DNA from: Saccharomonospora viridis DSM 43017
GTDB lineage: Bacteria; Actinomycetota; Actinomycetes; Mycobacteriales; Pseudonocardiaceae
Assembly: GCF_000023865.1 (NCBI RefSeq)
Contig: NC_013159.1
Coordinates: 2,072,001-2,136,000 of the forward strand
Reading direction: 5' to 3'
Length of the DNA: 64,000 nucleotides
The notes below the pieces were generated by a model, which was not told the origin of the DNA, made no database searches, and was given only the letters and a program-made list of their open reading frames with translations. The position numbers and the translations under genes were made by a program. Of this stretch, positions 5,539 through 22,792 are shown piece after piece. Within the stretch, counting starts at the first letter, position 1; each line of letters starts with the position of its first letter.

Positions 5539-5565
5539 CACAAGCCGCAGCATCGGGTGTTCCCG

Positions 5566-5597
5566 GCGGGGGCCGCGTTGACGCGGCCCCCGCTTTC
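5566..5597 (+). terminator. Rho-independent terminator of the protease gene
   Basis: A 12-bp perfect stem (GCGGGGGCCGCG / CGCGGCCCCCGC) with a TTGA loop, followed by TTTCGT, just after the protease stop codon. Confidence 0.85.
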
Positions 5598-5950
5598 GTC
5601 GTGTCCGACCCCGAAGGGACGACCGTTTCCGTGTCCGGTGTGGCCCGCGCTGGTCACAAGGAAGGGGCCGTCCTCGCGCAAGGTGTGATCAGCCCTTGAC
5701 CAGGCACGGCTGTGGTGGGTCGACAGCAGCGCAGACAGGGGGAGGGCGCTCGCATCGCCTCACAGCCGTACCGAGCAGGAACCGCAGAACATCGCAGGAA
5801 GTGACGGCCCGCCGGGCATCTTCCGACGTCATGGGTGAGCGCGCGACATCGACGTGCGTGGGAGCAGATCCCTCGCCATGCCGGGTTCGTCAAGGCACCC
5901 CTTTCAAGGGAAGGGGAGACATGCCCGCATGTTCGAAGCCGCCCTCGGGC
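5598..5950. other. Gene-free spacer between convergent genes
   Basis: About 350 bases between the protease terminator and the 3' end of the minus-strand lipoprotein gene. I find no coding frame with family motifs. A small hairpin CCCCTT-N7-AAGGGG at 5898-5916 could end the minus-strand operon, although no T-run follows on that strand. Confidence 0.4.
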
Positions 5951-6505: not shown

Positions 6506-6540
6506 GTGCCGTCCCTTCCTGTCGCGCGGCCGTCGCCGGG

Positions 6541-8142: not shown

Positions 8143-8148
8143 CGCCGA

Positions 8149-8457
8149 TCACTCCCCCGAGCTCAACGGGGGAAGTGTTTCGAGCACGGCCTGTTCCATT
8201 TCGCGGTAGCCGTCCGAGCTGTCCTCCAGCAACCCGCCGGCCACGGCCGTGCGTTTGCACAGATCGTCGACGTAGTACTCCCACAGCTCGGCCAGTGAGG
8301 CGGCCTTGCTGGCGGTGGTGAAACCACTGTTGGCGCCCTCGTGCACGGCGATCGCGCCGATGAATCGCGCCTTGGCTTCGCGGGCCTCGTCTGCGATCTC
8401 GACCAGCTGCTCACCGGTTGAGACCAGGCTGTCGGGATCGACGCCGTAGCCGTTCAT
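8149..8457 (-). CDS. EspC/WXG100-like small secretion-associated protein
   Basis: A helical protein of about 102 residues resembling EspC/type VII secretion-target families. It starts GYGVDPDSL, has predicted helix-turn-helix hairpin character, and carries YxxxD/E export-type signals (YYVDD near the middle and YREME near the end). The ATG at 8457 is chosen because the upstream ATG at 8481 lies only about 14 bases from a CATAAT -10 element (8495-8500) and lacks a ribosome site; starting at 8481 would add eight residues. It is first in the operon with the WXG-DUF1023 hydrolase and probably forms its secretion partner. No EccC-type ATPase or other core ESX component lies in this window. Confidence 0.82.
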   Translation of the reverse strand: MNGYGVDPDSLVSTGEQLVEIADEAREAKARFIGAIAVHEGANSGFTTASKAASLAELWEYYVDDLCKRTAVAGGLLEDSSDGYREMEQAVLETLPPLSSGE

Positions 8458-8494
8458 GCCAAACCCCAGCTTCGTGATCATGTACTGGTCGCCG

Positions 8495-8500
8495 ATTATG
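8495..8500 (-). promoter_or_regulatory. Putative -10 box of the type VII-like operon
   Basis: Read on the minus strand the sequence is CATAAT, one mismatch from TATAAT, 38 bases upstream of the preferred start at 8457. No good -35 is seen at the normal spacing. Confidence 0.4.
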
Positions 8501-8608
8501 ACGCTTCACCCGCACCCGGGGTTCCGTTGTCGAAGGAAAGTCGCTTCAAACGGACCGAGGCGCAGCTCGGGGCTGGAGCGGTGTTCGTGTGGCGAGGGAC
8601 CGACCGCC

Positions 8609-8638
8609 GCGTGGGGGCGGCGGAAACCGCCCCCACGC
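8609..8638 (-). terminator. Terminator after the MerR-PP2C gene
   Basis: A 12-bp perfect stem (GCGTGGGGGCGG / CCGCCCCCACGC) with a 6-base loop, 14 bases beyond the stop codon of the minus-strand MerR-PP2C gene. Confidence 0.75.
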
Positions 8639-8651
8639 GCTTTGAGGTGCC

Positions 8652-9737
8652 CTAGTGGTCGGAGGCGTGTACGTCGACGACGATGCAGGCCAGGTTGTCC
8701 GGCGCCCCGGCGGCGTGTGCCGCGGCGGAGATCCGGTCGACCGCCTCCTGCGGGGCGGTGGCGGTGGTCAGCAGTTCCTGCAGGTCGTCCACGACGGCGT
8801 ACACGCCGTCCGTGCACAGCAGATACCGGTCACCCGGCATGGCTTGTCGCAGGTGTAGGTCGGGTTCGGTGGTTTTCAGGCCACACAGTGCACGCACCAG
8901 GGTGGTGCGTTCGGGGTGGGTTTGGGCCTCCTCGGGGGTGAGGCGCCCTTCGTCCACCAACGACTGCACGTAGGTGTGGTCGTGGGTCAACGATTCCAGT
9001 TCACCCTCGCGCACGAGATAGGCGCGGGAATCGCCGACGTGGGCGAGGGCGAAATCGGCGCCGGACCACAGCAGTGCGGTCAGTGTCGTTCCGGCATCCG
9101 GTGCGCCAGCGACGCGGTTGACGCTCGCGCGGGCGTCGTGGAAGCCGGCCAGCAGGGTGGTGGTGAGTTTTTCGGGTGGTACCACGGTGTCGGCGGAGCG
9201 CAACGCCGCCACCGCGGTGGCCGAGGCGGCACCCTCGCCGTTGCCGGTGTTTCCGTGTTCTGCGCCTGGGCCGAAACCGTCGGCGACGGCGAACAGTGCG
9301 CCGCCGGCATAGAGGGCGTCCTGATTGGTGTTCCGGACAAGACCCCGGTCGAGGACGCAGGCGTGGTTCAGGCGCACAGGTGTGTGGTGGGCGGACATGG
9401 TGGGGTCCTTTCCTGACAGTCGGTCGACGAGGAAGGAGACGGTCTCCCGGCGAGCGGCGATGTCGGCTTCGACCTGGTGCCAGTACGTGCTGATCTCCTG
9501 CGCGGCCGCGGCCCGCGGGAGATCGCAGACGACCCGGATACGGGACAACGGCATGCCGATTCCCCGCAGCCACGCGATGAGCCGCGCCCGATCCAGTTGC
9601 GACCGTTCGTAGTAGCGGTAGCCGGTGCAGGCGTCGACCCGCGCGGGGGTCAGCAGTCCCAATTCGTCGTACAACCGCAACGCTTTGGGGGTGAGCCCAC
9701 AAGCCTGGGCGAATGCGCCGATGCTCAGTGCTGCCAT
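8652..9737 (-). CDS. MerR-type DNA-binding domain fused to PP2C protein phosphatase
   Basis: A 361-residue fusion. Residues 1-75 are a MerR winged helix (SIGAFAQACGLTPKALRLYDELGLL, then CTGYRYYERSQLDRARLI). A dimerisation helix follows to about residue 110. The rest is a PP2C/PPM phosphatase whose metal-binding motifs are present: RNTNQDAL, VADGFGPG, HVGDSRAYLV, LLCTDGVY and APDNLA. The Mn/Mg-coordinating aspartates therefore look intact and catalysis is likely. The start at 9737 is preferred over 9767 because GGGAGGA sits just upstream. The protein would couple transcription control to dephosphorylation of Ser/Thr proteins, perhaps itself. It lies downstream of an MFS exporter on the same strand, 179 bases away. 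Confidence 0.92.
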   Translation of the reverse strand: MAALSIGAFAQACGLTPKALRLYDELGLLTPARVDACTGYRYYERSQLDRARLIAWLRGIGMPLSRIRVVCDLPRAAAAQEISTYWHQVEADIAARRETVSFLVDRLSGKDPTMSAHHTPVRLNHACVLDRGLVRNTNQDALYAGGALFAVADGFGPGAEHGNTGNGEGAASATAVAALRSADTVVPPEKLTTTLLAGFHDARASVNRVAGAPDAGTTLTALLWSGADFALAHVGDSRAYLVREGELESLTHDHTYVQSLVDEGRLTPEEAQTHPERTTLVRALCGLKTTEPDLHLRQAMPGDRYLLCTDGVYAVVDDLQELLTTATAPQEAVDRISAAAHAAGAPDNLACIVVDVHASDH

Positions 9738-9916
9738 CTCGTCCTCCCGGAAAACCGGGTCGATCACCCGGTGAGCGCCAGTGTGAGAGCTTCCCCGAGG
9801 GGAAGGTCAACAAGAGGCGACGGAACGGATGTGCAGGGCCACGGTGGACGCCGAGAGCGCGTCCGGCTCGGACCTGTTCGCCTGTGGATTCGGTTGTGGT
9901 GTGCTCGACGGTGTCG

Positions 9917-11605
9917 TCAGAGGTTGCGCCTGGCCGGTGCGCGGGTGCCGGCCGTGCGGCGGATCTGGAACCGTCGGCTGCGGGTTCTCGGCCGGCGGCT
10001 GGGGCGGGGGGACCGGCGGGGTGGAGTGGACCGCGGGTTCCTCACACGCGTGGGCGTGTGGGAGTTGGCCGGTGTCGGCGGGGTCGGTGTCGGTTTGTCG
10101 GCGAGGTCGAAGGTGTCGCGTAGCGGGGCTTCCTTGATGAACAGCACGCTGACGGCGGTGATGACCGCGAGGGCGGCACTGATGAGGAACAGTGTTCCGG
10201 TCGCGTCGCCGTAGGCGGCGCGGACGATGTCGGCGACCGGGGCGGGAAGAGCGTCGAAGTCGAGGCTTCCCGCGCTGACGTGGGCGTCCGCGTGGAGGCC
10301 GCGTGCGGCCAGGGAGGCGGCGGTGATGTCGGAGACCTGGGCGGACAGCACGGCGCCGAGTGCGGACACTCCGATGGCGCCGCCGAGGGTGCGGAAGAAG
10401 GTGACGGCCGCGGTGGCCACACCGACATAGCGCATGCCCACGGTGTTCTGCGCGACGAGCACGAGGTTCTGCATGACCGAGCCCACGCCGATGCCCAGCA
10501 GGGTGAGGAACACGCTCATCCACACGAGGTTGGTGGCGTGGTCGACGCTGGCCAGCAGGAACAGGCCGGCGAGCAGGGGCAGTGAGCCGCCGAGCAGGAA
10601 CGGTTTGGTGCGGCCGATGCGTGAGACGATGCGTCCGGTGATGGTGGAGGCGCAGACCATGCCGATCACCATCGGCAGGGTCAGTAGCCCGGCGATGCTG
10701 GGGGAGAAGCCGCGGGAGATCTGGAAGTACTGCACCAGGAACACGGTGCCGACGAACATGGTGGTGCCGACGGCGAGTGAGGCCACGACGGCGAGGGTGA
10801 AGGTGCGGTTGTGGAACAGGTGTAGTGGGATGACGGGTTCGCGTACCTTGCTTTCCACGTACACCGCGAGGGCGATCAGGACCGCGCTCCCGCCGAGGAG
10901 CGCGGCGGTGTGCCACGACAACCAGGCGAAGCTCTTTCCGGCCAGGGTGATCCAGACCAGCAGGAGCGCCACTCCGCCGACGATGAAGGTCGCGCCGAAC
11001 CAGTCGATGGAGACGTCGTATTTGACGACGGGCAGTTTCAGTATCCGCCCCAGCACGATGAACGCGATGACGGTGATGGGGACGCACACCCAGAACGTCC
11101 AGCGCCAGCCCAGGGGGGAGTCGACCAGCAGGCCGCCGACCAGGGGTCCGGAGGCGGTGGAGATGGCGAAGATCGCGCCGATGTAGCCGCCGTAGCGGCC
11201 GCGTTCGCGGGGCACGACCAGTGCGGCGATGACGGCTTGGACGAGTGACTGGAGGCCTCCCAGGCCGATGCCCTGCACGGCACGGAACGCGATGAGTTGG
11301 GGCATGGTCTGGGAGAATCCGCCGAGGACGCAGCCCACCGTGAAGATCGCGATCGCGACCTGGTACAGCATCTTCTTGCTGAACAGGTCGGAGAGCTTGC
11401 CCCAGATCGGTGTGGTGACGGTGGAGGTCAGCAGCATCGCCGTCACCACCCACGTGTAGTGGCTTTGTGTGCCGTTCAACTCGGCGAGGATCGTGGGCAG
11501 GGTGCTGGTGACGATCGTGGAGGACAGGGTGGCCACCAGCAGGGTGGCCAACAGTCCCGTGAAGACTTTGAGCACCTGTTGGTGGGGCATCGATTGAGCA
11601 GTCAT
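9917..11605 (-). CDS. DHA2/EmrB-type MFS multidrug exporter
   Basis: A 562-residue proton-driven exporter with the 14-helix DHA2 layout. It shows the motif TLPTILAELNG in helix 1, motif A-like WGKLSDLFSKK, and motif C-like GPLVGGLLVDSPLGWRW. The ATG at 11605 (MTAQSM) is preferred; an upstream GTG/ATG at 11662 would add 19 unlike residues. After helix 14 the last ~60 residues are an Arg/Pro/Ser-rich tail that looks unnatural. The neighbouring frame over the same bases encodes a smoother Pro-rich tail, so a frameshift near 10080 is possible. A perfect AAGTTG/CAACTT repeat lies upstream. The drug or metabolite exported is unknown. Confidence 0.9.
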   Translation of the reverse strand: MTAQSMPHQQVLKVFTGLLATLLVATLSSTIVTSTLPTILAELNGTQSHYTWVVTAMLLTSTVTTPIWGKLSDLFSKKMLYQVAIAIFTVGCVLGGFSQTMPQLIAFRAVQGIGLGGLQSLVQAVIAALVVPRERGRYGGYIGAIFAISTASGPLVGGLLVDSPLGWRWTFWVCVPITVIAFIVLGRILKLPVVKYDVSIDWFGATFIVGGVALLLVWITLAGKSFAWLSWHTAALLGGSAVLIALAVYVESKVREPVIPLHLFHNRTFTLAVVASLAVGTTMFVGTVFLVQYFQISRGFSPSIAGLLTLPMVIGMVCASTITGRIVSRIGRTKPFLLGGSLPLLAGLFLLASVDHATNLVWMSVFLTLLGIGVGSVMQNLVLVAQNTVGMRYVGVATAAVTFFRTLGGAIGVSALGAVLSAQVSDITAASLAARGLHADAHVSAGSLDFDALPAPVADIVRAAYGDATGTLFLISAALAVITAVSVLFIKEAPLRDTFDLADKPTPTPPTPANSHTPTRVRNPRSTPPRRSPRPSRRPRTRSRRFQIRRTAGTRAPARRNL

Positions 11606-11697
11606 GGCGGGTCCGACGGGGTGGGGGGCGCGGACGTGGTGATCTCCTTCCGGCGTGCGCACGGAGAAGGAGAAGTACTTAACTAAGCTAACGAAAG

Positions 11698-11723
11698 AAG
11701 TTGTTTAGCGCAACTATCAACTT
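11698..11723. promoter_or_regulatory. Inverted repeat upstream of the DHA2 exporter
   Basis: AAGTTG at 11698-11703 pairs with CAACTT at 11718-11723, and within it AGTTG-N7-CAACT (11699-11715) forms a nested palindrome. It sits in an AT-rich island between the exporter and the divergent N-acetyltransferase, as expected for a TetR/MarR-type operator. No regulator gene is adjacent. Confidence 0.5.
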
Positions 11724-11773
11724 TGTGGTGGGTGACTTGACCTCCACCGCGCCCGAGATGTGAGGCTGGGTTC

Positions 11774-12634
11774 ATGCCGACCACCCGCACCCCGGCCTCG
11801 CCTCCGCCTCACGACTGGGGCGTGGCCACCGTCGACGTGGACGCCTACCTCGACCGGGTCGGCGTCCCCGCAATGCGCCCCTCACCGGAAGCGCTGGCCA
11901 CCCTGCACGAAGCGCACGTGCGCACCATTCCGTTCGAGAACGTCGACATACAGCTCGGCCACACCCCGAGCCTGCAGCTGTCCGACATCACCGACAAACT
12001 CGTCCGTCGACGACGCGGGGGCTACTGCTTCGAACACGGCCTGCTGTTCGCGGCCTGCTTGGAACGACTCGGTTACCAGGTCACCCGTGGCATGGCCCGG
12101 GTGCGACCCGACAGTCCACACGGGTCGAGGACCCATCTCGTCCTGTTCGTCGACGTGGCCGGGACACGGTTTCTGGCCGACCCCGGATTCGGTTCCGGTC
12201 TGCTGATGCCCCTGCCGTTGGAAGACGGCGCCACCACCGAACACGGTGGCTGGCCGTACCGGCTCCGGCGCGACGGTCGACTGTGGCGGCTGGAGAAACC
12301 CGACGAGCACGGGGAGTGGGTGGCGGCGCATGCCTTCGACGAGACCCCACAGCGGCCGATCGACTACGTGGTCGCCAACCACTTCACCGCCACCCACTCG
12401 CATTCCCCGTTCACCCAGCGGCTCATCGTGCAACGGCTCGACCGCGGCAGCTGCCGCAAACTCTTCGGCAACAGACTGCTCGTGGAACACGCCACGCGCC
12501 CCTCCGGCCAGCCGCGCGCGGTGGCCGCCGACGAGCTCGACGAGGTCCTCCGCTGGTTGGACATCGTCCTGGACGAGGACGAGCTCACCCGGTTGCGGCA
12601 GGTCTACGCGGGCACCGAACCTCCGGGCGCCTAG
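11774..12634 (+). CDS. nat: Arylamine N-acetyltransferase
   Basis: A 286-residue cytosolic enzyme of the NAT family, which transfers acetyl from acetyl-CoA to arylamines or hydrazines. The catalytic triad is visible: Cys85 in RRGGYCFEHG, His121 in RTHLVLF and Asp136 in LADPGFG. The N-terminal PFENVDI motif is also present. Length agrees with actinobacterial NATs. It is transcribed divergently from the DHA2 exporter, and its stop codon overlaps that of the convergent MFS gene in a shared CTAG. In mycobacteria NAT works in a cholesterol-catabolism cluster, but no such genes are here. Rifamycin-type amide synthases share this fold, but nothing nearby suggests antibiotic synthesis. Confidence 0.95.
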   Translation: MPTTRTPASPPPHDWGVATVDVDAYLDRVGVPAMRPSPEALATLHEAHVRTIPFENVDIQLGHTPSLQLSDITDKLVRRRRGGYCFEHGLLFAACLERLGYQVTRGMARVRPDSPHGSRTHLVLFVDVAGTRFLADPGFGSGLLMPLPLEDGATTEHGGWPYRLRRDGRLWRLEKPDEHGEWVAAHAFDETPQRPIDYVVANHFTATHSHSPFTQRLIVQRLDRGSCRKLFGNRLLVEHATRPSGQPRAVAADELDEVLRWLDIVLDEDELTRLRQVYAGTEPPGA

Positions 12635-14226
12635 AACCTCTTTTGCGGATCGGGCCGGTGCGGCTGGTGAGCGGACACGGCGGCCTCCGCCGCAGCCGTA
12701 CCGATCCCAGCGTCGTCCGAGGAATCGTCGAGCGCGAATCCGGGCCGTGCCACGCCCGGATGCCGGTGGCAGAGGTGCCTGCGTTGCCACACGGTGTTCG
12801 ATGACGACACCGTGGACACCGAGGACACCGTGGACGCCGAGGACACCGTGGACGCCGAGGACACCGAGGACGCCGAGGACACCGAGGACACCGTGGGCGT
12901 GGACCGGTCGTTTCGGTCGACCGCTCCCTTTTGTTCGGGTCCTGGATGGGGTCGGCTCGTCGTCGTGGGCAGGCTCCAGCGTGGCACAAAAGACCGACCG
13001 GTGAACACGACGGCGAGGCCGACGAGGGGAGTGAGGACGGTCGCGACGAGAGCCAGCCAGGACACGGCGGTGTCCAGCGGATGCCACAGGGTCATCAACC
13101 CCACGACGACCGAGGGACCGCCGGAGCCGACGTAGAACGCGAGATAGAGCGCGGAGGTGATCGCCCCTCGCCGGTCCTCGGGTGCGATGGCCTCGACGGC
13201 GGCGGCAGCCCCGCTGTAGGCCAGCCCGTGTCCCACACCGGCCGCCGCGGCCGCGACCATGGTGATCGACAGCGACCCACCACCGGTCACGGCCAGGGCG
13301 AGGAGACTGAGCAGCAGAGCGCTGAGACCGACCAGCTGCGCCGGCCCCGCCCCGCACCGTGCCACGAAGGGCTGCGCCGCCATGGAGCAGACCAGCACAG
13401 CGCCGACCACGCCACCGATGACCGCCAGATTGTTGATTCCGGCTGTCCGGTTCAGCACCGCCGGGATGACCGCCAAGAACAGGCCGGCCACGGCCCAAGC
13501 GAGGAAACCGGTCGCCGCGGCGGTGGTGAACCGCAGCCGCATACCAGTGGGGATGCGTGGTCGCGTGGGCCTCCACCGACGCGCCCGTTGCGGGGGTGCG
13601 GGCAGGGCGGACACACGGTGCCAGCCGATCGCCAGCAACCCCAAATGCACCAGGTACGGCAACACCTGCGGCTGCGGGGCGTACTGCGCCACCACCCCCG
13701 CGGCGATCGGACCGACCGCGGTGCCGGCCACGAACGCCATACTGGCCACCACCGACGCCCGTCCCCGGTTCGCGGACGGAGTGTGGTCCGTGATCACCAT
13801 GGTGGCCGCCCCCGTGACCGCGCCCAGCGCCAGTCCTTGGGCGGCCCGGCCGACCAGCAACCACCCCACCCCGTCGGCCAGCACGAAACACGTCGAGGCG
13901 AACGCGGCCACCGCCACGCCGACCCGCAGCACCGTGCGTGGGCCGAGCGCATCCGCCGCCGGCCCGAACAACAGCAGGGCAGGGGCGCTGACCAGCGCGA
14001 ACATCGCGTAGATCAGTGTCAACATCAGGTCGCTGAAGCCGAAGGCGACCTGATACTGCGGATACAGCGGGCTGGGCAGATACGCCCCCGCCGTAAGCAC
14101 CACCAACAGGTACACCGCTGTGCGTCCCGCGTGAACACCACGGTCGGCCCGGCGAGAAAGCCGGCCGGGAAACGCACTGACACCACCGTTGCCGGAAAGT
14201 TCTTCGGACAACCTCGCCAGCATCAC
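12631..14226 (-). CDS. MFS transporter with repeat-containing C-terminal tail
   Basis: A 531-residue (GTG start at 14226; ATG at 14223 also possible) twelve-helix MFS transporter. Helices run from about residue 35 to 420, with the motif-A-like FGPAADALGPRTVL after helix 2 and APEDRRGAITS in the central region. The C-terminal ~110 residues are hydrophilic and contain ten copies of a three-residue unit [S/T][V/A]S encoded by a 9-bp DNA repeat (12806-12895). The gene converges on the nat gene and shares the bases CTAG with its stop codon. It is divergent from a LysR regulator that probably controls it. Substrate is unknown; the family includes sugar- and drug-export proteins. Confidence 0.9.
   Translation of the reverse strand: MMLARLSEELSGNGGVSAFPGRLSRRADRGVHAGRTAVYLLVVLTAGAYLPSPLYPQYQVAFGFSDLMLTLIYAMFALVSAPALLLFGPAADALGPRTVLRVGVAVAAFASTCFVLADGVGWLLVGRAAQGLALGAVTGAATMVITDHTPSANRGRASVVASMAFVAGTAVGPIAAGVVAQYAPQPQVLPYLVHLGLLAIGWHRVSALPAPPQRARRWRPTRPRIPTGMRLRFTTAAATGFLAWAVAGLFLAVIPAVLNRTAGINNLAVIGGVVGAVLVCSMAAQPFVARCGAGPAQLVGLSALLLSLLALAVTGGGSLSITMVAAAAAGVGHGLAYSGAAAAVEAIAPEDRRGAITSALYLAFYVGSGGPSVVVGLMTLWHPLDTAVSWLALVATVLTPLVGLAVVFTGRSFVPRWSLPTTTSRPHPGPEQKGAVDRNDRSTPTVSSVSSASSVSSASTVSSASTVSSVSTVSSSNTVWQRRHLCHRHPGVARPGFALDDSSDDAGIGTAAAEAAVSAHQPHRPDPQKRF
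12806..12895. repeat. 9-bp tandem repeat, ten units
   Basis: Ten contiguous copies of GAC(A/G)CCG(T/A)G. The repeat lies inside the 3' coding part of the MFS gene and keeps its frame, giving [S/T][V/A]S triplets on the minus strand. A unit length divisible by three allows copy-number change without a frameshift. Confidence 0.9.
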
Positions 14227-14248
14227 ATCCGTAGTGTGCGGCCAGGAC

Positions 14249-14263
14249 TGCTGAAGATCAGCA
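14249..14263. promoter_or_regulatory. Candidate LysR-binding palindrome
   Basis: TGCTGA-AGA-TCAGCA is a perfect inverted repeat in the 71-base gap between the divergent MFS and LysR genes. It fits the T-N11-A type of LysR box. Confidence 0.6.
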
Positions 14264-14297
14264 AACGTTGGTACACGAAACCGTGCAAAATCATGAC

Positions 14298-15233
14298 ATG
14301 ATCGACCCGAGGTTGCGGGTGCTGCAGATGGTGGCCCACCACGGCACGGTGACCGCCGCCGCGGAGGCGCTGCACTACACCCCGTCCGCGGTCTCGCACC
14401 AGTTGCGGCAGTTGGCCGCCGATCTCGGAGTCGAGCTGGTCACCCAGGCCGGCCGGGGCATCCGGCTGACCCCCGCGGCGGAGACCCTGCTCCGCCACAC
14501 GGAGGTACTGCAGGCCCAGGCCGAACGGGCGCGCGCCGAGTTGGCCGCCGCCAGCGACAGTCCCGGCGGGTCCTTCACCCTGTGCGGTTTCTCCACGGCC
14601 GCCACCCATCTGCTGCCCCCGGCCGCGGCGGCCCTGCGGGACCACTACCCGAACCTGGCCGTGCGGGTCATCGAAGCCGAACCCGCCCGTTGTTTCGACC
14701 TGTTGTTGGCCGGTGACGCCGACCTGGCGCTCGTGGTCGCCACCGCCTCCACCCCGCCGACGTCGGACCCACGGTTCGACCAGCGCCCCTTGGTGGAAGA
14801 CCCGCTCGACCTCGTCGTGCCCGAAGGCCATCCGCTGACCACCCGCCGCAAGGTCACACTCGGCGACGCCGTCGACGAACCCTGGATCGTGGGGCGGCCC
14901 GGAAGCACCTACCACCATCTGGTGCTCACCGCCTGCATGGCGGCCGGGTTCACACCCAACATCGCCCACTACGCCGACGAATGGGAAACCGGCACCGCCC
15001 TGGTCGCCCACGGCTTCGGTGTCATCCTCGTGCCGCGACTCGCCCGACTGCATCGACACTGGCCCATCGCCCGCATCCCCTTGCACGGTGAGCCCGCCCC
15101 GGCCCGGCGGATCCTCGCCGCCACCCGCCTCGGCAGCCGCGAACACCCCGTGGTCAAGACCGCCCTGGACACCATCACCGCTACCGACGCCGCCCTGCAC
15201 CCCCTCCACCGGGCCGAGGAACGGTCGGACTGA
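14298..15233 (+). CDS. LysR-family transcriptional regulator
   Basis: A 311-residue regulator. The N-terminal winged helix-turn-helix is clear: LRVLQMVAHHGTVTAAAEALHYTPSAVSHQLRQLAADLG, cited here as residues about 5-45 with the recognition helix at SAVSHQLRQL. The C-terminal two-lobed periplasmic-binding-like effector domain runs from about residue 90 to 295. The ATG at 14298 starts a canonical LysR N-terminus; 14268 would add ten residues. It is divergent from an MFS exporter with a T-N11-A palindrome between them, so it most likely controls that exporter in response to an unknown small molecule. The Tn3 transposon begins 53 bases after its stop codon. Confidence 0.93.
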   Translation: MIDPRLRVLQMVAHHGTVTAAAEALHYTPSAVSHQLRQLAADLGVELVTQAGRGIRLTPAAETLLRHTEVLQAQAERARAELAAASDSPGGSFTLCGFSTAATHLLPPAAAALRDHYPNLAVRVIEAEPARCFDLLLAGDADLALVVATASTPPTSDPRFDQRPLVEDPLDLVVPEGHPLTTRRKVTLGDAVDEPWIVGRPGSTYHHLVLTACMAAGFTPNIAHYADEWETGTALVAHGFGVILVPRLARLHRHWPIARIPLHGEPAPARRILAATRLGSREHPVVKTALDTITATDAALHPLHRAEERSD

Positions 15234-15281
15234 GCGTTGCCCCTGCGCGATCCGGGCCCTCGGGACCTCGTGTTTCGGGAC

Positions 15282-15286
15282 GTGTC
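15282..15286. repeat. Left target-site duplication of the transposon
   Basis: GTGTC immediately before the left inverted repeat matches GTGTC at 22788-22792 after the right inverted repeat. Five bases is the standard Tn3-family duplication. Confidence 0.92.
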
Positions 15287-15324
15287 GGGGCGTGAGGAAC
15301 ATCGGAACGGAAACTGGCGCTAAG
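15287..15324 (+). repeat. Left 38-bp terminal inverted repeat (IRL)
   Basis: It begins GGGGCGTGAGGAAC and ends ACTGGCGCTAAG. It is identical to the right repeat except for two bases at positions 5-6 (CG here, TT in IRR). Length and ends match Tn3-family repeats. Confidence 0.93.
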
Positions 15325-15427
15325 CCTCCAATGCCCCGATCCGCTCGTTGACGGCCTTGATCGTTTTGCTGAAGCTTCGCTGCGGTTCCGCCGCAGTGGG
15401 TGGATGTAGATCTGAAAGGCCAGTGAG

Positions 15428-18400
15428 TTGCCAGTTGAGTTCCTGCCCGATGAGCAGGCTGCGGCCTACGGCCGGTTGCCCGAGGTGTTGTCGCGGGCAG
15501 AGTTGGAGCGGTTCTTTTTCCTCGACGACGTCGACCGGGGCCTGGTGGAGGCCAAGCGGCGCGATTACAACAAGCTCGGGTTCGCGCTCCAGCTCGTGAC
15601 GGTGCGCAACGTCGGGGCGTTCCTCGATGACCCGCTGGACGTGCCGGTCGAGCTGGTCGACTATCTCGCCGAGCAGCTCGGAATCGTGGACTCGTCGTGC
15701 GTGAAGTCCTACGGCGAGCGGGAGAAGACCCGCTTCGAGCACGTCTGGGAGCTGCGCCAGGCCGGTGGCTGGCACGAGTTTTCGGTGGTGGAGAACGAGC
15801 TCGGCGAGTGGATCGAGGCCCGCGCCTGGACCACCGGAGACGGGCCGAAGGCGCTGTTCGACGTCGCGGTCTCATGGCTGCGAGAGCGCAAGGTGCTGCT
15901 GCCAGGCGTGACCCGGCTGGTCCGGCTGGTCGCCGCCCGGCGAGAGGCGGCGAACCGGCGGTTGTGGGAGACGCTGTGTGATCTGCTTGACGACGAGCAG
16001 CGCGCCGCGCTGGATGGGTTGTTGGAGGTGCCGGAGGGGCACCGGAATTCGCGGTTGGACACGCTGCGGCGGCCGCCGGTGCGGGTGTCGGGTCCGGCGA
16101 TGGTCGATGCCCTTCAGCGCGCGTCGGAGATCCTCGGGTTGGGGTTCGTCGAGGTGGACACTGAGGTGGTGCCGCCGCGCCGGTTGGCGGAGTTGTCGCG
16201 GTATGGGGTGCAGGGCAAGGCCAGTTTGCTGCGTCGTCACGGTGATTCCCGGCGGGCGGCGACGCTGTTGGCCACGGTGGTCTACCTGCAAACTCGGGCA
16301 GTCGATGACGCCCTGGATCTGCTGGATGTGCTGATCGCCTCGAAGCTGCTGGCGCGGGCGGAGCGGGAATCGGCCAAGGAGAAGCTGCGCACCCTGCCCA
16401 AGCTGGGCAAGGCGTCGGCGAAGCTTGCGGCCGCGCTGGGGGTGTTGCTGGAGGTGACCGGCGCGCACGATGGCCTGGCCGAGCAGGCCGCCGACGACGG
16501 CGACACCATCGAGCCGGTCAGTTTGGCGCAGGTGTGGGCCGAGATCGAGGCCGTGGTGCCCCGCGCCGAGCTGGCCGAGGCTCTGGTCGCGGTGGTGGAG
16601 CTCGCGGGGCCGCTGGACTCGGATGCGGATGAGGCGTGGCGGGCGGAGTTGGTGAAGCGGTTCGTCACGGTGCGGCCGTTCCTGCCGTTGTTGTGTGAGG
16701 TGATCCGCTTCGGCGCCGCGCCCGAAGGGCGTCAGGTGCTGGCGGCGTTGCGGGATCTGCCTCGGTTGTGGGGCGGCGGCCGCAACAAGGTCGCCCGCTC
16801 CGAGATCGACGAGCAGCTGCTGATCGGCTCGTGGCGCAGGTTGGTGCTGCACGCCCCGGAGCTGGAGCCAGGGACGATCGATTGGCGGGCTTACACCTTC
16901 TGTGTGCTGGAGCAGTTCCACCGCTGTTTGCGGCGTCGGGACATCTTCGCGGTCAACTCCAGTAAGTGGGGCGACCCGCGCGCCAAGCTCCTCGCCGGCA
17001 GTGCGTGGACCACCGCGAAGCCGGTGGTGCTGTCCAGTCTCGGACTGCCACCCGACCCGAACGAGCACCTCGACGAGTGCGCCGAGCTGTTGGACGCCAC
17101 CTTCCGCGAAGTCACAGCGGGACTGCCGGAGAACACCGCGGTGCGCTTCGACGAGGACGGCCGCCTGCACCTCTCAGCGCTGCCAGCGGAGGCGGAGCCG
17201 CCGAGCCTGGCCAACCTGCGGGCGCTGACCAACCGGATGCTGCCCCGCGTCGACCTTCCGGAGGTGTTGCTGGAGGTCTTCTCCTGGACCGGCGCCGACC
17301 AGGCGTTCACCTCGATCACCGGCGGCGAAGCCCGCCTGGCCGACCTGCACATCACCATCGCCGCGCTACTGGTGTCCGAGTCCTGCAACATCGGCTGGAC
17401 TCCAGTGATCAAGCACAGCGTGCCGGCGTTGACGCGGGATCGTCTGGCGCACGTGGACGCGACCTACCTGCGGATGGACACCCTCAAAGCCGCCAACACC
17501 TTCCTGATCGAGCACCAGGCCCGCATCGGCCTTGCTCAGGTGTGGGGCGGCGGGCACGTGGCCAGTGTCGACGGGATGCGGTTCGTCGTGCCGGTGCAGA
17601 CCATCAATGCCCGCCACAACCCGCACTACTGGGGCCAGAAACGGGGCGCGACCTGGCTGAACATGGTCAACGATCAGGCCGCCGGGCTCGCCGGGAAGGT
17701 CGTGGCGGGCACCCCACGCGACTCCCTGCACGTGCTGGACGTGCTGTATGACCGCGACGGCGGGCAGAAACCGCAGATGATCGTCACTGACACCGCCTCC
17801 TACTCCGACATCGTCTTCGGGCTGCTCACTCTCGCCGGGTACACCTACGCCCCGCAGTTGGCCGACCTGCCCGATCAGAAGCTGTGGCGCATCGACACCC
17901 GCGCCGACTACGGGCCCTTCACCACAGCGGCTCGCGGCCGCATTGATCTCGACCGGATCCGGCGGCACTGGGAGGACATCCTGCGCGTGGTCGCCTCGAT
18001 CCACACCGGTGCCGTCCGCGCTCACGACGTGATCCGGATGCTGTCCCGCGACGGCCACCCCACCCCGTTGGGTGAGGCGATCGCGCACTACGGCCGGATC
18101 CACAAGACGCTGCACGTGCTGCGGATGGTCGACGACACCGGCTACCGCCGCGACATCAAAGCCCAGGCCAACCTCCAGGAAGGCCGCCACGCCTTGGCCC
18201 GGCGGATCTTCCACGGCCAGCGCGGCGAACTACGCCAGCGCTACTACGAAGGCATGGAAGACCAACTCGGCGCCCTGGGCCTCGTCCTCAACGCGATCGT
18301 GCTGTTCACCACCCGCTACCTGGATGCCGCCATCACCGAACTCCGTGCCGGCGGCTACGAAGTCCACGACGAAGACGCGGCCCGGCTCTCGCCGTTCGTA

Positions 18401-18514
18401 CGCCACCACATCAACATGCTCGGCCGGTATTCGTTCCTGCTCCCCGCCGATCTGGCCCAGGGCCTGCGGCCGCTGCGTGATCCGTCCGAGCCCGACGAGG
18501 ACAACGAACGGTGA
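15428..18514 (+). CDS. tnpA: Tn3-family transposase TnpA
   Basis: A 1028-residue transposase, close to the family norm of about 1000. The start is TTG at 15428 with AAAGG eight bases upstream. The N-terminal part (EFLPDEQAAAYGRLP, AELERFFFLDD) is the DUF4158-type DNA-binding region that reads the inverted repeats. The C-terminal DDE catalytic domain shows Asp715 (ASVDGMRF), Asp788 (VTDTASYSD) and Glu918 (NLQEGRHALARR). The enzyme catalyses replicative transposition into a cointegrate, which the recombinase at 21605-22579 should resolve. The frame is intact, so the element may still be active. Its 3' end converges on the methyltransferase gene with an 18-base gap. Confidence 0.96.
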   Translation: MPVEFLPDEQAAAYGRLPEVLSRAELERFFFLDDVDRGLVEAKRRDYNKLGFALQLVTVRNVGAFLDDPLDVPVELVDYLAEQLGIVDSSCVKSYGEREKTRFEHVWELRQAGGWHEFSVVENELGEWIEARAWTTGDGPKALFDVAVSWLRERKVLLPGVTRLVRLVAARREAANRRLWETLCDLLDDEQRAALDGLLEVPEGHRNSRLDTLRRPPVRVSGPAMVDALQRASEILGLGFVEVDTEVVPPRRLAELSRYGVQGKASLLRRHGDSRRAATLLATVVYLQTRAVDDALDLLDVLIASKLLARAERESAKEKLRTLPKLGKASAKLAAALGVLLEVTGAHDGLAEQAADDGDTIEPVSLAQVWAEIEAVVPRAELAEALVAVVELAGPLDSDADEAWRAELVKRFVTVRPFLPLLCEVIRFGAAPEGRQVLAALRDLPRLWGGGRNKVARSEIDEQLLIGSWRRLVLHAPELEPGTIDWRAYTFCVLEQFHRCLRRRDIFAVNSSKWGDPRAKLLAGSAWTTAKPVVLSSLGLPPDPNEHLDECAELLDATFREVTAGLPENTAVRFDEDGRLHLSALPAEAEPPSLANLRALTNRMLPRVDLPEVLLEVFSWTGADQAFTSITGGEARLADLHITIAALLVSESCNIGWTPVIKHSVPALTRDRLAHVDATYLRMDTLKAANTFLIEHQARIGLAQVWGGGHVASVDGMRFVVPVQTINARHNPHYWGQKRGATWLNMVNDQAAGLAGKVVAGTPRDSLHVLDVLYDRDGGQKPQMIVTDTASYSDIVFGLLTLAGYTYAPQLADLPDQKLWRIDTRADYGPFTTAARGRIDLDRIRRHWEDILRVVASIHTGAVRAHDVIRMLSRDGHPTPLGEAIAHYGRIHKTLHVLRMVDDTGYRRDIKAQANLQEGRHALARRIFHGQRGELRQRYYEGMEDQLGALGLVLNAIVLFTTRYLDAAITELRAGGYEVHDEDAARLSPFVRHHINMLGRYSFLLPADLAQGLRPLRDPSEPDEDNER

Positions 18515-18532
18515 CACCCCGCTCGGGGTGGC

Positions 18533-19153
18533 TTAGGGCCGGTAGGTGGCCACCCCGAGCACGTACCGGCCGCGGCGGCGGGTCAGGTACTGCTGGTCGA
18601 CGACGAGATGGTGGCGTGCCAGCTCGGAGAGGAATTCCTCGGCGGTGAAGCGGTTCTCGGCCGGGTGGTCGAACAGCAGCCGGTAGGTAGAGGTGGCCAG
18701 GGCCAGGGCGGTGACTTCGTCGAAGTAGAACCGCCCGCCCGGGGTGAGGACGCGGGCGATCTCGGCCAGGGCGTCGGGCCAATGGGGGATGTGGTGGATG
18801 ATCGCGAAGTCGAACACCGCGTCGTAGCGGGAGAGGGGCTCGCCCAGCGTGGTGTGCAGGTCGGTGGCGCTGCCCTGGGCGAGGCGGACCCGCTGGCCGT
18901 AGCGGCGGGTCAGGCGCCGCCGGGCCCGGGTGATCATCGCGGGGTCCAGGTCGATCGCGTCGACGTGGCCGGCGCCGAAACGGTCCAGGATCAGCTGGGT
19001 GCCGTAGCCCGGCCCGCAGCCCAGCTCCAGCACCCGCGCCCCGGGTGGCAGCGGCCCGCCGAGCCGGCGCATCCACGGCACCTCGTAGTAGCGCTGCAAC
19101 CACCGCCGGGGCGGGGAGTTGACCAGCGCGGTCTCGACCCGGTTCATCAACAT
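18533..19153 (-). CDS. Class I SAM-dependent methyltransferase (transposon cargo)
   Basis: A 206-residue methyltransferase. Motif I is VLELGCGPGYG, followed by an acidic loop AIDLDPAM, motif IV-like FDFAIIHHIPHW and the post-motif ARVLTPGGRFYF. The ATG at 19153 is preferred (AGGTG upstream); 19180 would add nine residues and collide with the divergent promoter. It lacks the Cys set of the arsenite methyltransferase ArsM, so arsenic methylation is unlikely. It is divergent from the CmtR-like gene with only 44 bases between the start codons, so both are probably controlled from one operator. Its substrate and its role in metal resistance are unknown. Confidence 0.9.
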   Translation of the reverse strand: MLMNRVETALVNSPPRRWLQRYYEVPWMRRLGGPLPPGARVLELGCGPGYGTQLILDRFGAGHVDAIDLDPAMITRARRRLTRRYGQRVRLAQGSATDLHTTLGEPLSRYDAVFDFAIIHHIPHWPDALAEIARVLTPGGRFYFDEVTALALATSTYRLLFDHPAENRFTAEEFLSELARHHLVVDQQYLTRRRGRYVLGVATYRP

Positions 19154-19185
19154 CACAACACCTCGATTGCATCGTCCCATATTGC

Positions 19186-19191
19186 TATTAT
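19186..19191 (+). promoter_or_regulatory. Putative -10 box giving a leaderless cmtR-like transcript
   Basis: TATTAT ends seven bases before the ATG at 19198, so transcription would start at or beside the start codon. No ribosome-binding site precedes that ATG. The surrounding 44-base AT-rich gap must also carry the regulator's operator. Confidence 0.5.
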
Positions 19192-19197
19192 CGGGTT

Positions 19198-19596
19198 ATG
19201 ACGATGAATAGCATGGAGGGGTGCCTGGCGTCGAGCCCGCCGGGCGCGAACCTGGATCCGGCTGTGGCGTTGTTTCACAGCCTGTCGGACGCCACGCGGT
19301 TGGCGATCGTGCAGCGCCTGGCCGGCGGGGAGGCCCGGGTCGCCGATCTGATCGCCGAGCTGGGGCTGGCGCAGTCGACGGTGTCGGCGCACGTGGCGTG
19401 CCTGCGGGACTGCGGGCTGGTCGTGGGGCGCCCGCAGGGGCGGCAGGTGTTCTACAGCCTGGCCCGCCCGGAGCTGATGGACCTGCTGGCCTCGGCTGAG
19501 ACGCTGCTGGCCGCGACCGGCAACGCGGTGGCGCTGTGCCCGACCTACGGCACCGACACCACCGGTGATACCGAGAACGGGGAGGTCGTGCGGTGA
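19198..19596 (+). CDS. CmtR-like ArsR-family cadmium/lead sensor
   Basis: A 132-residue ArsR winged-helix repressor. The core is FHSLSDATRLAIVQRL, the recognition helix QSTVSAHVACLRDCGLV and the wing GRPQGRQVFYSL. Its Cys pattern is that of mycobacterial CmtR: a CxxxC pair in the recognition helix (ACLRDC) and a distal Cys in the C-terminal tail (ALCPTYG). In CmtR these three Cys bind Cd(II) or Pb(II) and release DNA. The last codons overlap the GTG of the metal ATPase (GTGA), so sensor and pump are co-translated. The start at 19198 appears leaderless. Cadmium/lead sensing is inferred from the conserved Cys positions. Confidence 0.92.
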   Translation: MTMNSMEGCLASSPPGANLDPAVALFHSLSDATRLAIVQRLAGGEARVADLIAELGLAQSTVSAHVACLRDCGLVVGRPQGRQVFYSLARPELMDLLASAETLLAATGNAVALCPTYGTDTTGDTENGEVVR

Positions 19597-21563
19597 GCGA
19601 CGCCTGCGGCTGCGGCAGCGACGAGCCCCGCACCGGCGAGGAAGAAGAGCGCGAGCCGGAACGGCTCTGGCAGGTCAGCGAACTGCGCTTCGCCGCGATC
19701 GCCGGGGTGCTGCTGCTGGCCGGATACGCGGTGGAGTGGGCCGGGGCGGGCTCCACACTGGCGCTGGCCCTGAAGGCGCTGGCCTTGGTCGCCGGGGCCT
19801 ACACCTTCGTGCCCTCCACGCTGAAGCGACTGGCCCAGGGCAAGATCGGGGTCGGCACCCTGATGACCATCGCCGCGGTCGGCGCGGTGATCCTGGGTGA
19901 GGTCGGCGAGGCCGCGATGCTGGCCTTCCTCTACTCCATCAGCGAGGGCCTGGAGGAATACTCCCTGGCCCGCACCCGCCGCGGGCTGCGGGCGCTGCTG
20001 TCCCTGGTCCCCGAGGAAACCACGGTGCTGCGCAACGGCAGCGAGACCGTGGTGGCCCCGTCCGAGTTGCGGGTCGGGGACCGGATGCTGGTCAAGCCCG
20101 GGGAGCGCATCGCCACCGACGGCGTGATCCGCACCGGCCGCACCGCGCTGGACGTCTCCGCGATCACCGGCGAGTCCGTGCCGGTCGAAGCGGGCCCCGG
20201 CAGTGAGGTGTTCGCCGGGTCGATCAACGGCACCGGGGTGCTGGAGGTCGAGGTCACCACGACCTCCGAGGACAACTCACTAGCGCGGATCGTGCGGATC
20301 GTGGAGGCCGAGCAGTCCCGCAAGGGCGCCAGCCAGCGCCTGGCCGACCGCATCGCCAAACCCCTGGTGCCCGGCGTCATGATCGCCGCCGCGCTCATCG
20401 CCGGAATCGGCAGCCTCCTCGGCGACCCGACCACCTGGATCGAACGCGCCCTGGTCGTGCTCGTGGCCGCCTCACCCTGCGCGCTGGCGATCTCCATCCC
20501 CGTCACCGTCGTCGCCGCCATCGGTGCCGCGAGCAAGCACGGTGTGCTGGTCAAGGGCGGCGCCGCGCTGGAGGCCCTCGGCCGCGTGCGGGGGGTGGCG
20601 CTGGACAAGACCGGCACCCTGACCCGCAACCAGCCCGCCGTGGTCGACGTCGCCACCACCGACGGGACCCCGCGCGAGCGGGTGCTCGAGCTGGCCGCGG
20701 CGTTGGAGGCCCGCAGCGAACACCCCCTGGCCCGCGCGATCCTCGCCGCCGTCGACGGCGAGACGATCACCCCCGCGGCCGACGTGGAGGCGGTCACCGG
20801 CGCCGGGCTGACCGGCCAGCTCGACGGCCGCCCGGTGCGGCTGGGCCGCCCCGGCTGGCTGGAAGCCGGGCCGCTGGCCGCCGAGGTGCAGCGCATGCAG
20901 CAGGCCGGGTCCACCGCCGTGCTCGTCGAGGACGACGGCCGCGTGATCGGCGCGATCGCCGTGCGCGACGAACTGCGCCCCGAAGCCGCCGAGGTCATCA
21001 CCCGGCTGTGCTCCGGCGGCTACCACGTCGCCATGCTCACCGGCGACAACCACGCCACCGCCACCGCCCTGGCCGCCGAAGCCGGTATCGACACCGTGCA
21101 CGCCGAACTCCGCCCGGAGGACAAGGCCCGCATCATCAGCGAACTGGGCGACCGGCGATCGATGGCGATGGTCGGTGACGGTGTCAACGACGCCCCCGCC
21201 CTGGCCACCGCCGACCTGGGCATCGCCATGGGCGCCATGGGCACCGACGTCGCGATCGAAACCGCCGACGTCGCCCTCATGGGCGAAGACCTGCGGCACC
21301 TGCCCCACACCCTCGACCACGCCCGCCGCGCCCGACGGATCATGCTGCAAAACGTCGGACTCTCCCTCGGGTTGATCATCGCTTTGATGCCGCTGGCGCT
21401 GTTCGGCGTCCTCGGCCTGGCCGCGGTGGTGCTGGTGCACGAGGTGGCCGAGGTCGTGGTCATCGCCAACGGGGTGCGCGCCGGCCGCGCCAAGCCGCTG
21501 CCCACACTGCCCGGCGGCAAGCCTGTGGCGGAGCGGCCCGCGACAGTGGGGGCCTCGGCGTAA
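19593..21563 (+). CDS. P1B-type heavy-metal efflux ATPase (CtpG-like)
   Basis: A 656-residue metal-pumping P-type ATPase in the cytoplasmic membrane. Core motifs are present: TGES (actuator), SPCA in the metal-site helix, DKTGTLT with the phosphorylated Asp, an HP pair (SEHPLA), and GDGVNDAP. The metal-site motif is SPC rather than the CPC of copper or classical zinc/cadmium pumps, and the last helix holds HEVAEVVVIANG. This resembles mycobacterial CtpG/CtpD-type pumps. The N-terminus lacks a full metal-binding domain but has a short CGC motif (residues 5-7). The GTG start overlaps the stop of the CmtR-like gene. Export of Cd(II)/Pb(II), or Co/Zn, is inferred from the partner sensor. Confidence 0.93.
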   Translation: MSDACGCGSDEPRTGEEEEREPERLWQVSELRFAAIAGVLLLAGYAVEWAGAGSTLALALKALALVAGAYTFVPSTLKRLAQGKIGVGTLMTIAAVGAVILGEVGEAAMLAFLYSISEGLEEYSLARTRRGLRALLSLVPEETTVLRNGSETVVAPSELRVGDRMLVKPGERIATDGVIRTGRTALDVSAITGESVPVEAGPGSEVFAGSINGTGVLEVEVTTTSEDNSLARIVRIVEAEQSRKGASQRLADRIAKPLVPGVMIAAALIAGIGSLLGDPTTWIERALVVLVAASPCALAISIPVTVVAAIGAASKHGVLVKGGAALEALGRVRGVALDKTGTLTRNQPAVVDVATTDGTPRERVLELAAALEARSEHPLARAILAAVDGETITPAADVEAVTGAGLTGQLDGRPVRLGRPGWLEAGPLAAEVQRMQQAGSTAVLVEDDGRVIGAIAVRDELRPEAAEVITRLCSGGYHVAMLTGDNHATATALAAEAGIDTVHAELRPEDKARIISELGDRRSMAMVGDGVNDAPALATADLGIAMGAMGTDVAIETADVALMGEDLRHLPHTLDHARRARRIMLQNVGLSLGLIIALMPLALFGVLGLAAVVLVHEVAEVVVIANGVRAGRAKPLPTLPGGKPVAERPATVGASA

Positions 21564-21578
21564 CCCGCAGCGAAACCC

Positions 21579-21613
21579 CGACGGTAGGGGCGGCCCGGCG
21601 GCCCCTACCGTCG
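21579..21613. terminator. Bidirectional hairpin between the ATPase and recombinase genes
   Basis: A 13-bp perfect stem (CGACGGTAGGGGC / GCCCCTACCGTCG) with a 9-base loop lies where the plus-strand ATPase and minus-strand recombinase converge. It contains the recombinase stop codon. Confidence 0.75.
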
Positions 21614-22579
21614 GCTGTCGCCGGGCGCCAACAGGCTGGTGATCTCGGCGAGCGCCTGGTCGGAGGGTTTGAAGTACCGGCGCAGGTTCTCCGGCTTCCT
21701 ATGCCGGGACTTCGCCATCAGCAGCAACAGGCTCGCTCCGGCCTCGCCGAGGTGCGTCAACGCGGAGTGGCGGAGCTCGTGCAGGTCCCAGCCCGTTCCT
21801 GGTCCCTGGAGTGCGGTGTGGGCATCCAGCAGAGCACGGGCCTGCCCGTAGGACAGCCGGGCCAGCCCGCTGTCCGGACACACATCACGGGGGCTGAGGA
21901 CCTTGCACGGGCCGGGGTGGCGGTGAGTGACAAACACCGGGCCCCGGCTGCGGCCCTTGAGCAGGCGCGGCAACAACCGGGCGGTGCCGGCATCCCAGTA
22001 GACGGTCTCTAACATGAAATCCGCGCGCCCCTGGCCCCGCCGACGGGCCCGGGCCGCACCCTTGGCCTTGACCGGGCAGCGGCGCCCGGCCAGGTCGAGA
22101 TCCTCGATGTTGATGCCGAGGATCTCCTCGGCGCGCGCGGCGCTCTCGTAGAGCATCCGGTACAGCGTCTTCTCCCGCAGGCCCACCTCCCGGTGTGCGA
22201 TCAGCCGGTCGATCGCCAGGCGAGACCGGACTGGGGTTTGCGAGTCCGGCACCGTCATCCGCTTGGTCCACCCCGGAACGCTCGGAGCATCGTGGCCACG
22301 TTCCCGGCACCAAGCCAACCACGACAACACCGCGGCGCGGCGGGCGTTCCACGTGTTGACCGCCGCGCCGCCCCACAGCAGTTCCAGCGCCTCACCGACC
22401 TCGTCATCGGCCACCGCCGCCAGCGGCCGGCGCTCGCCCAACCGGTCGGCGGTCTTGCCCACCCCGGCCCCGTAGGCACGGAACGTGTTCGGGTTGCCCA
22501 GCGAGTCGAGGAACAGCTCGGCCGCCCGACCGATGGTCAGCGCCGAGGGGTTCGTCGGCAGCGCGACGACGGTGGACAC
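21605..22579 (-). CDS. tnpI: Tyrosine recombinase, TnpI-like cointegrate resolvase
   Basis: A 324-residue tyrosine recombinase. The GTG at 22579 is preferred because AAGGGAG lies eight bases upstream; a GTG at 22618 would read through a half-site repeat. An N-terminal SAM-like core-binding domain ([16 protein letters not shown]) is followed by the catalytic domain. The first Arg is in [10 protein letters not shown], the H-x-x-R box is [10 protein letters not shown], a later His/Arg stretch is [12 protein letters not shown], and the nucleophile Tyr is in RRYFKPS. It sits at the right end of the transposon next to a palindromic core site and an extra half-site, the arrangement expected of a TnpI/IRS resolution module. 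Resolution of cointegrates is the inferred job. Confidence 0.9.
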
Positions 22580-22592
22580 CCGCGTTCTCCCT

Positions 22593-22604
22593 TGCCGCAG
22601 ATAA
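22593..22604 (+). repeat. Accessory half-site of the resolution region
   Basis: TGCCGCAGATAA repeats exactly the left arm of the core palindrome at 22658-22690, in the same orientation and 53 bases away. It lies just upstream of the recombinase start codon, as accessory direct repeats do in TnpI systems. Confidence 0.7.
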
Positions 22605-22657
22605 CAGGGCCGCCTCACGCGCCGCCGCGGGGATGTTCCCGCAGGACATGATCAGCG

Positions 22658-22690
22658 ATGCCGCAGATAATAGGCCGTTATCTGCGGCAT
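22658..22690. other. Recombination core site (IRS-like) of the transposon
   Basis: A perfect inverted repeat with 13-bp arms (ATGCCGCAGATAA / TTATCTGCGGCAT) around a 7-bp spacer TAGGCCG. Arm and spacer lengths suit a tyrosine-recombinase crossover site. Binding by the recombinase encoded at 21605-22579 is inferred from position and symmetry. Confidence 0.75.
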
Positions 22691-22749
22691 GAGTTCACGA
22701 ACCTGCCGAAGCCGGCGTCGCGTTGATCAGCGACCAGGGACGACGAGGG

Positions 22750-22787
22750 CTTAGCGCCAGTTTCCGTTCCGATGTTCCTCAAACCCC
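22750..22787 (-). repeat. Right 38-bp terminal inverted repeat (IRR)
   Basis: The reverse complement begins GGGGTTTGAGGAAC and ends ACTGGCGCTAAG, matching 36 of 38 bases of the left repeat. Confidence 0.93.
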
Positions 22788-22792
22788 GTGTC
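22788..22792. repeat. Right target-site duplication of the transposon
   Basis: GTGTC, identical to 15282-15286. Confidence 0.92.

Follow-up and report, generated by a model that had tools for sequence, protein, structure and literature searches.

A Tn4556-type transposon of Saccharomonospora viridis and the clade-wide match between the transposase N-terminus and the terminal repeats

What kind of element occupies positions 15282-22792 of the 64,000-nucleotide stretch of the Saccharomonospora viridis DSM 43017 genome analysed here (the window; NC_013159.1, positions 2,072,001 to 2,136,000), and how does its transposase recognise its own ends? An original prediction, made from the sequence alone, had described this segment as a complete, undecayed and recently inserted Tn3-family transposon. 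The segment is best explained as an intact, Tn4556-type member of the Tn3 family, a view held with high confidence as a whole, i.e., including the proposed roles of the transposase (TnpA), the recombinase and the passenger genes, the recent entry and the reading of the repeats by the TnpA domain DBD1. The element itself is of this known kind; the part worth following is the matched exchange of DBD1 and terminal repeats to which its relatives point.

The element proper extends from 15287 to 22787 (7,501 bp), the range given above also taking in both copies of the target duplication GTGTC (15282-15286 and 22788-22792), as read in the sequence. Inverted-repeat comparison delimits a left (IRL; 15287-15324, plus strand) and a right terminal inverted repeat (IRR; 22750-22787, minus strand), each of 38 bp and with an interior of type A as defined below. 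Both agree at 36 of 38 positions (mismatches at positions 5 and 6), the inverted match of the element ends spanning 41 nt at 95 %. When the 4.31-Mb genome is searched with 32 bases of the repeat, two occurrences (at most 3 mismatches) are obtained, both at this element, and the backward control has no occurrence in the same genome. Tn3-family ends are terminal inverted repeats of about 38 bp, starting with GGGG and ending with TAAG. The features by which the family is recognised, i.e., ends of this length and form, a large TnpA with a Tn3 DDE domain and a 5-bp target duplication, are all present in the window element. Insertion took place between two convergent genes, neither of which is disrupted: that of a LysR regulator has its end at 15233, that of an amidohydrolase at 23072.

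The tnpA gene (15428-18514, plus strand; TTG start), recognised from its open reading frame and domain matches, encodes a DDE transposase of 1,028 amino acids with DUF4158 followed by DDE_Tnp_Tn3. It scores 859.7 bits against the NCBIfam model transpos_Tn3 (cut-off 500) and is homologous to TnpA of Tn4430 (PDB 7qd8, E 8e-106); a second TnpA was not found in the host genome, the protein itself being the sole match at E 0.001. The frame contains no stop, and D715, D788 and E918 are all present. By hand count in the alignment, D715 and E918 correspond to D679 and E881 of Tn4430 TnpA, which we take to be catalytic there. The original prediction was borne out at the level of single bases with respect to the 38-bp repeats with 36/38 identity and the GTGTC flanks, and ends, duplication, TnpA, cargo and recombinase of a complete Tn3-family transposon are all in place. 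Its description as undecayed also holds, as the genes are open, the ends intact and the catalytic residues kept, with none of the disabling mutations it had considered at Asp715, Asp788 or Glu918.

Codons 1-150 of tnpA (15428-15877, plus strand) represent the end-recognition module, assigned to DBD1 by alignment to Tn4430 (PMC9579193). In case of Tn4430, DBD1 is described as a key specificity determinant with base contacts at repeat positions 21-36; R97 is paired with base G32, and high covariance is reported for only two residue-base pairs (PMC9579193). The present comparison of domain and repeats covered 27 TnpA proteins at least 67 % identical to that of the window and accompanied by a readable left repeat. 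Dropped from it were two near-copies from Thermocrispum (L122 and L123), identical proteins, TnpA below 67 % identity and those without an open frame of 930 amino acids (including that of L115, interrupted by another element). The repeat interior is of type A in 17 and of type B in 10 of the 27 cases, the labels being set by the authors from the repeat letters; both types differ at 9 positions within 18-30 of the repeat (window vs. L116, by eye). The body of the protein was assigned by identity to the window TnpA, i.e., to P if above 74 % (7 proteins, all from the family of S. viridis) and otherwise to S (20 proteins; 12 Streptomyces/Streptomycetaceae plasmid loci, 8 from one genus). All four combinations of body and type exist, namely PA (5 proteins), PB (2; L116 and L125 only), SA (12) and SB (8).

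Across this set, the N-terminal part of TnpA goes with the repeat interior, and the rest of the protein does not. Identity within residues 1-150 amounts to 64 % between PA and PB, 81 % between PB and SB and 64 % between SA and SB, and within residues 161-1020 to 89, 70 and 89 %, respectively. The distance between repeat interiors correlates with that of residues 1-150 (r 0.80; partial correlation 0.85 when controlled for the rest, with p 0.0001 by permutation) and not with that of the rest of TnpA (r 0.11; partial -0.48). On the tree of residues 1-150, the type label changes once (support 100/99), compared to 7 changes on that of residues 201-end, which was built by a quick method and the starred branches of which force at least 4 changes. 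With shuffled labels, the latter tree requires a mean of 8.2 changes, and 130 of 500 shuffles need no more changes than the real labels, so that the type is distributed nearly at random over the body. Resolved by stretch, the number of changes is 1 for residues 1-75, 1 for 76-150, 2 for 151-200 and 5 for 151-300, followed by 7, 9, 7, 7 and 7 from residue 301 on. All 19 alignment columns in which A and B proteins share no residue lie within residues 2-129, and seven of them fall between 99 and 110, just after R98 of the window TnpA, the counterpart of R97 in Tn4430 (hand count in the alignment). By analogy with the Tn4430 structure, we infer that the window TnpA reads its repeats via DBD1.

As judged from sequence, the pattern points on balance to a natural exchange of end-recognition modules by DNA exchange. 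The alternative, convergence of residues 1-150 under selection by the repeats, gains from the consideration that selection must keep DBD1 and repeats matched; moreover, silent sites of the S body drop between types in codons 76-150 (58 %) and not in codons 1-75 (71 % vs. 72-73 % elsewhere), and the sample holds only two P-B proteins. Nevertheless, this alternative is unlikely, since the relationship also extends to positions that do not alter the protein: third codon positions of P-B and S-B agree to 70 % in codons 1-75, to 67 % in codons 76-150 and to 58-64 % thereafter, whereas those of P-A and P-B agree to only 57 and 59 % in the same two stretches and to 64-75 % in later codons. The untranslated stretch between IRL and tnpA displays the same pattern (62 % for P-B vs. 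S-B, 44 % for P-A vs. P-B). Evolution of Tn4556-type elements by repeated module exchange is considered probable, with about 150 N-terminal TnpA residues (DBD1), the left repeat and the intervening stretch moving as a block between bodies, and the right repeat coming to match within its 38 bp.

Such a history implies, if true, some way of keeping both ends of an element alike. Left and right repeats of the same element differ by 0-2 mismatches in all 13 two-ended elements, rare variants included, but the sequence inward of the right repeat follows the body (69 and 85 % identity for PA-PB, 61 and 61 % for PB-SB); thus, the right repeat seems to have been converted within its 38 bp. As to the route, one may guess at conversion of one end by the other within the same element, or at recombination with the end of a different element. 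Exchange of the right end at the adjacent resolution site was considered as well, but is spoken against by the neighbouring sequence tracking the body and not the repeat type.

Exchange of a matched DBD1 and repeat was not found in searches of literature listings, which covered few subscription journals. One of the listed publications, PMC11332342, reportedly concerns a hybrid transposon. For another Tn3 case, Tn5501.12, the left end was proposed to have been gained by recombination at the res site, i.e., by exchange of a whole end (PMC7157771). If module exchange is true, the window element represents one corner of a natural two-by-two set of type and body, and DBD1 alone would decide which ends such a transposase moves. 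Ends and recognition domain would then have a line of descent separate from that of catalysis, a point of importance when such elements are classified by TnpA trees. With each type present on two bodies, the clade offers natural chimeras for studying how Tn3 transposases recognise their ends.

At the opposite end of the element, a convergent gene (21605-22579, minus strand; probable GTG start at 22579) encodes a tyrosine recombinase of 324 amino acids (resolvase; TnpR in Tn4556), recognised from its open reading frame, its PF00589 match and its relatives. A motif scan places the core of the resolution site, a palindrome of the form CCGCAGATAA-7-TTATCTGCGG, at 22661-22687, i.e., 101-127 bp from the right end, and an accessory third half-site TTATCTGCGG 66 bp further in (22595-22604, minus strand), directly upstream of the recombinase start. 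Even with up to 3 mismatches allowed, the core palindrome has no second occurrence in the window (0 expected), and the half-site has three exact copies (0.02 expected). In all 20 distinct segments including the window, the second core half-site starts at an offset of 116-118 as counted from the outer repeat end, with the third one 66 bp on; the scan covered 110-130 and 175-200 bp, retaining only segments with a core at threshold and dropping those sharing their first 200 bases. Among loci whose TnpA shares at least 67 % identity with that of the window, and after those with less than 3 kb of room had been dropped, all 16 (window included) contain a recombinase relative downstream of tnpA, which is partial in L117 and L180 and split into two pieces in L116; a right repeat is recognised in 13 of the 16. 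No recombinase relative was found in two loci with more distant TnpA (L188, 61 %; L189, 52 %), while L010 (56 %) has a relative at 35 % identity. At E 1e-60 the recombinase is found in 15 of 390 genomes of the family and 5 of 394 of the class (own genome included).

It is very improbable that the recombinase represents a passenger integrase, i.e., part of a nested integrative element, instead of the resolvase of the transposon. Plasmid records annotate it as site-specific integrase, and three IMG/VR contigs contain a relative together with the same kind of site and no TnpA match in the available sequence; but the constant position downstream of tnpA in all 16 loci (within a recognised right end in 13), the near-fixed distance of the site from the transposon end and the presence of such a protein at the same place in Tn4556 (PMC6403206) argue for the resolvase. 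The three contigs (L197, L198 and L199) encode recombinase relatives 71-73 % identical to that of the window (6001-6972), with a core upstream and a third half-site 66 bp on; no Tn3 repeat was found in their available sequence. Second and third half-sites were detected by scan in L198 and L199, and by eye with more mismatches in L197. Phages using the recombinase-site module alone are suggested by the tail and lysin genes of L197 as well as by a gene of the DNA-polymerase-exonuclease type in L199.

With the recombinase as resolvase, transposition can be envisaged as follows: (i) TnpA would bind both 38-bp ends and join them to the target, giving rise to the 5-bp duplication that is observed, (ii) replication would then, as in the Tn3 family in general, yield a cointegrate, and (iii) the tyrosine recombinase would bind the three half-sites adjoining the right repeat, and its recombination of the two cores would separate donor and target. 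The latter step is proposed because of Tn4556, Tn4430 and the conserved site.

The closest described system is Tn4556 of Streptomyces fradiae, which was compared by its published description (PMC6403206). Tn4556 possesses a tnpA with TTG start, a methyltransferase and another passenger, and a 324-amino-acid PF00589 resolvase on the complementary strand; it shows 38-bp ends, 5-bp duplications and a palindrome at 6497-6527 of 6625, i.e., 99-129 bp from its right end. Its transposition in S. avermitilis was measured at 3.5 to 5.4e-4, compared to 1.8 to 3.1e-3 when the ends were matched (PMC6403206). The window element resembles Tn4556 in (i) the TTG-started tnpA at the left end, (ii) passengers in the middle including a methyltransferase, (iii) a PF00589 recombinase of the same length, encoded at the right end by the other strand, (iv) the palindrome between recombinase and right repeat (core at 101-127 vs. 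99-129 bp), and (v) the lengths of repeats and duplications. It differs in its other passengers (metal regulator and ATPase vs. isoprenyl diphosphate transferase) and in host family. Streptomyces relatives with TnpA about 67-70 % identical share the layout of the window element. The placement of the recombinase at the far end is not new, since it is already known from Tn4556 (PMC6403206).

Among 190 transposons, only Tn5401, TnBth4 and Tn4430 are named as TnpI carriers, Tn4556 being unmentioned in the available part of the source (PMC7157771). As TnpR of Tn4401 was also counted as a tyrosine recombinase (PMC8138268), the figure of three appears unreliable. With the TnpI-irs systems of Tn4430 and Tn5401 from Bacillus (PMC7157771), the window element shares a single tyrosine recombinase together with a core inverted repeat and accessory sites in direct orientation, the systems being compared by the description of their sites and one accessory site being seen here vs. 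two in Tn4430. A tnpI sequence of Tn4430 was not found, 3 of 330 matching plasmid records having been inspected. In contrast, tnpI is colinear with tnpA there (PMC7157771), whereas both genes lie convergently at opposite ends here. The Tn4651/TnXax1 group likewise employs a tyrosine recombinase (PMC7157771). This protein, TnpS, works together with a divergently encoded helper, TnpT, and a site between both genes. No second resolution gene is present among the assigned genes of the window element, no search aimed at one having been made.

Scanning 84,980 genomes, each representing a single species, by a pattern for TnpA relatives yielded 35 loci, two of which, in Thermocrispum agreste DSM 44070 and T. 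municipale DSM 44069, are 99-100 % identical. The DNA of both aligns with the window across the element and at most 15 bases past it, and in the three species of two genera the element occupies unrelated sites, each copy having its own 5-bp duplication. Window and T. municipale copies differ in 8 columns, window and T. agreste in 14 and the two Thermocrispum copies in 18 (99.8 % identical copies), so that the closest pair spans the genera. When 18 kb of the window were searched against both Thermocrispum genomes, each of the six other matched stretches showed only 67-77 % identity. Near-identity and own duplications, contrasted with this background, argue for recent transfer between genera. 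These comparisons show an element common to Thermocrispum that, judged by DNA identity, entered S. viridis recently, supporting the recent insertion expected by the original prediction and clearly exemplifying how a probable metal-resistance transposon has recently spread from one actinomycete genus to another. More widely, TnpA is found at E of at most 1e-150 in 25 of 386 genomes of the family (own included), and 11 of the 13 two-ended elements (window included) have a perfect 5-bp duplication, the exceptions being L182 and L184. DNA and recombinase searches did not find the element in phage records, no TnpA match was confirmed in viral contigs, and none of 156 matching plasmid records covers 80 % of the element.

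Several observations weigh against this reading of an intact and recently inserted Tn4556-type transposon. L115 falls outside the 20-segment scan because one of its core half-sites is under threshold, a core was not seen in L117, no right repeat was recognised in L117, L179 or L180, and in the T. agreste copy the ATPase gene lacks 1 bp close to its end. Furthermore, no empty site was found among 11 congeners when the joined flanks were compared to 12 genomes of the genus (own included, one per species): apart from small, chance-like matches, the left part was matched up to base 413 of 487 and the right part from base 772, all congener matches ending before or starting after the junction, and the one congener with both flanks has them on different contigs. 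From its relatives, this copy may be taken to be mobile; a static relic of intact appearance at a long-inherited site, for which its single copy in the genome could be cited, is hardly credible in view of the near-identical copies with own duplications at unrelated sites in two other species, the open genes, the intact ends and the kept catalytic residues. L115 (G016; 3465-15538), a relative of type B, has both ends and, as judged by eye, a GAGGC duplication; its tnpA is interrupted and shortened, and another Tn3-type TnpA match (23 % identical) lies inside the element.

Between tnpA and the recombinase gene, three passenger genes are present: (i) a class I S-adenosylmethionine-dependent methyltransferase (18533-19180, minus strand; domain matches), (ii) an ArsR/SmtB-family metal sensor (19198-19596, plus strand), and (iii) a heavy-metal P1B-type ATPase with SPC motif (19593-21563, plus strand), the regulator gene overlapping the ATPase gene. 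The latter two were assigned by profile and structure-database matches. Among solved structures, the regulator is nearest to the cadmium/lead sensor CmtR (Rv1994c, 2jsc), its CmtR match of 64.5 bits staying below the curated NCBIfam cut-off of 150, and the ATPase is nearest to 7qbz, a "cadmium translocating P-type ATPase". Unlike CmtR-type sensors and P1B ATPases as such, the pair is transposon-borne and accompanied by a methyltransferase. The cargo probably confers heavy-metal resistance; judging from the protein families, a CmtR-like repressor and a P1B ATPase would provide metal-responsive efflux. Assignment of the methyltransferase as a defence protein was rejected, as the PADLOC mad2 match covers 153 residues of a general methyltransferase domain, and so was that as arsenite methyltransferase, with matches far under the curated cut-offs. 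Older kin with cargo at about 90 % identity are L113 (entire cargo, intact ends) and L118 (regulator, ATPase and partial methyltransferase).

In Streptomyces plasmids (L084, L086, L088, L179-L187 and L191), the interval between tnpA and recombinase gene holds differing annotated passengers in most cases, namely FabV, MurJ, major facilitator superfamily (MFS) transporters, a SpoIIE-type phosphatase as well as LysR and TetR regulators; L086, L186 and L191 have a regulator and an MFS transporter in common. With passengers differing between them, tnpA and the recombinase gene act as a frame for cargo. Outside the element, about ten 9-bp tandem units (GACACCGAG and variants) at 12806-12893 of the window read as a Ser/Thr/Val-rich tail in a minus-strand frame of 531 amino acids, which by eye resembles a membrane transporter.

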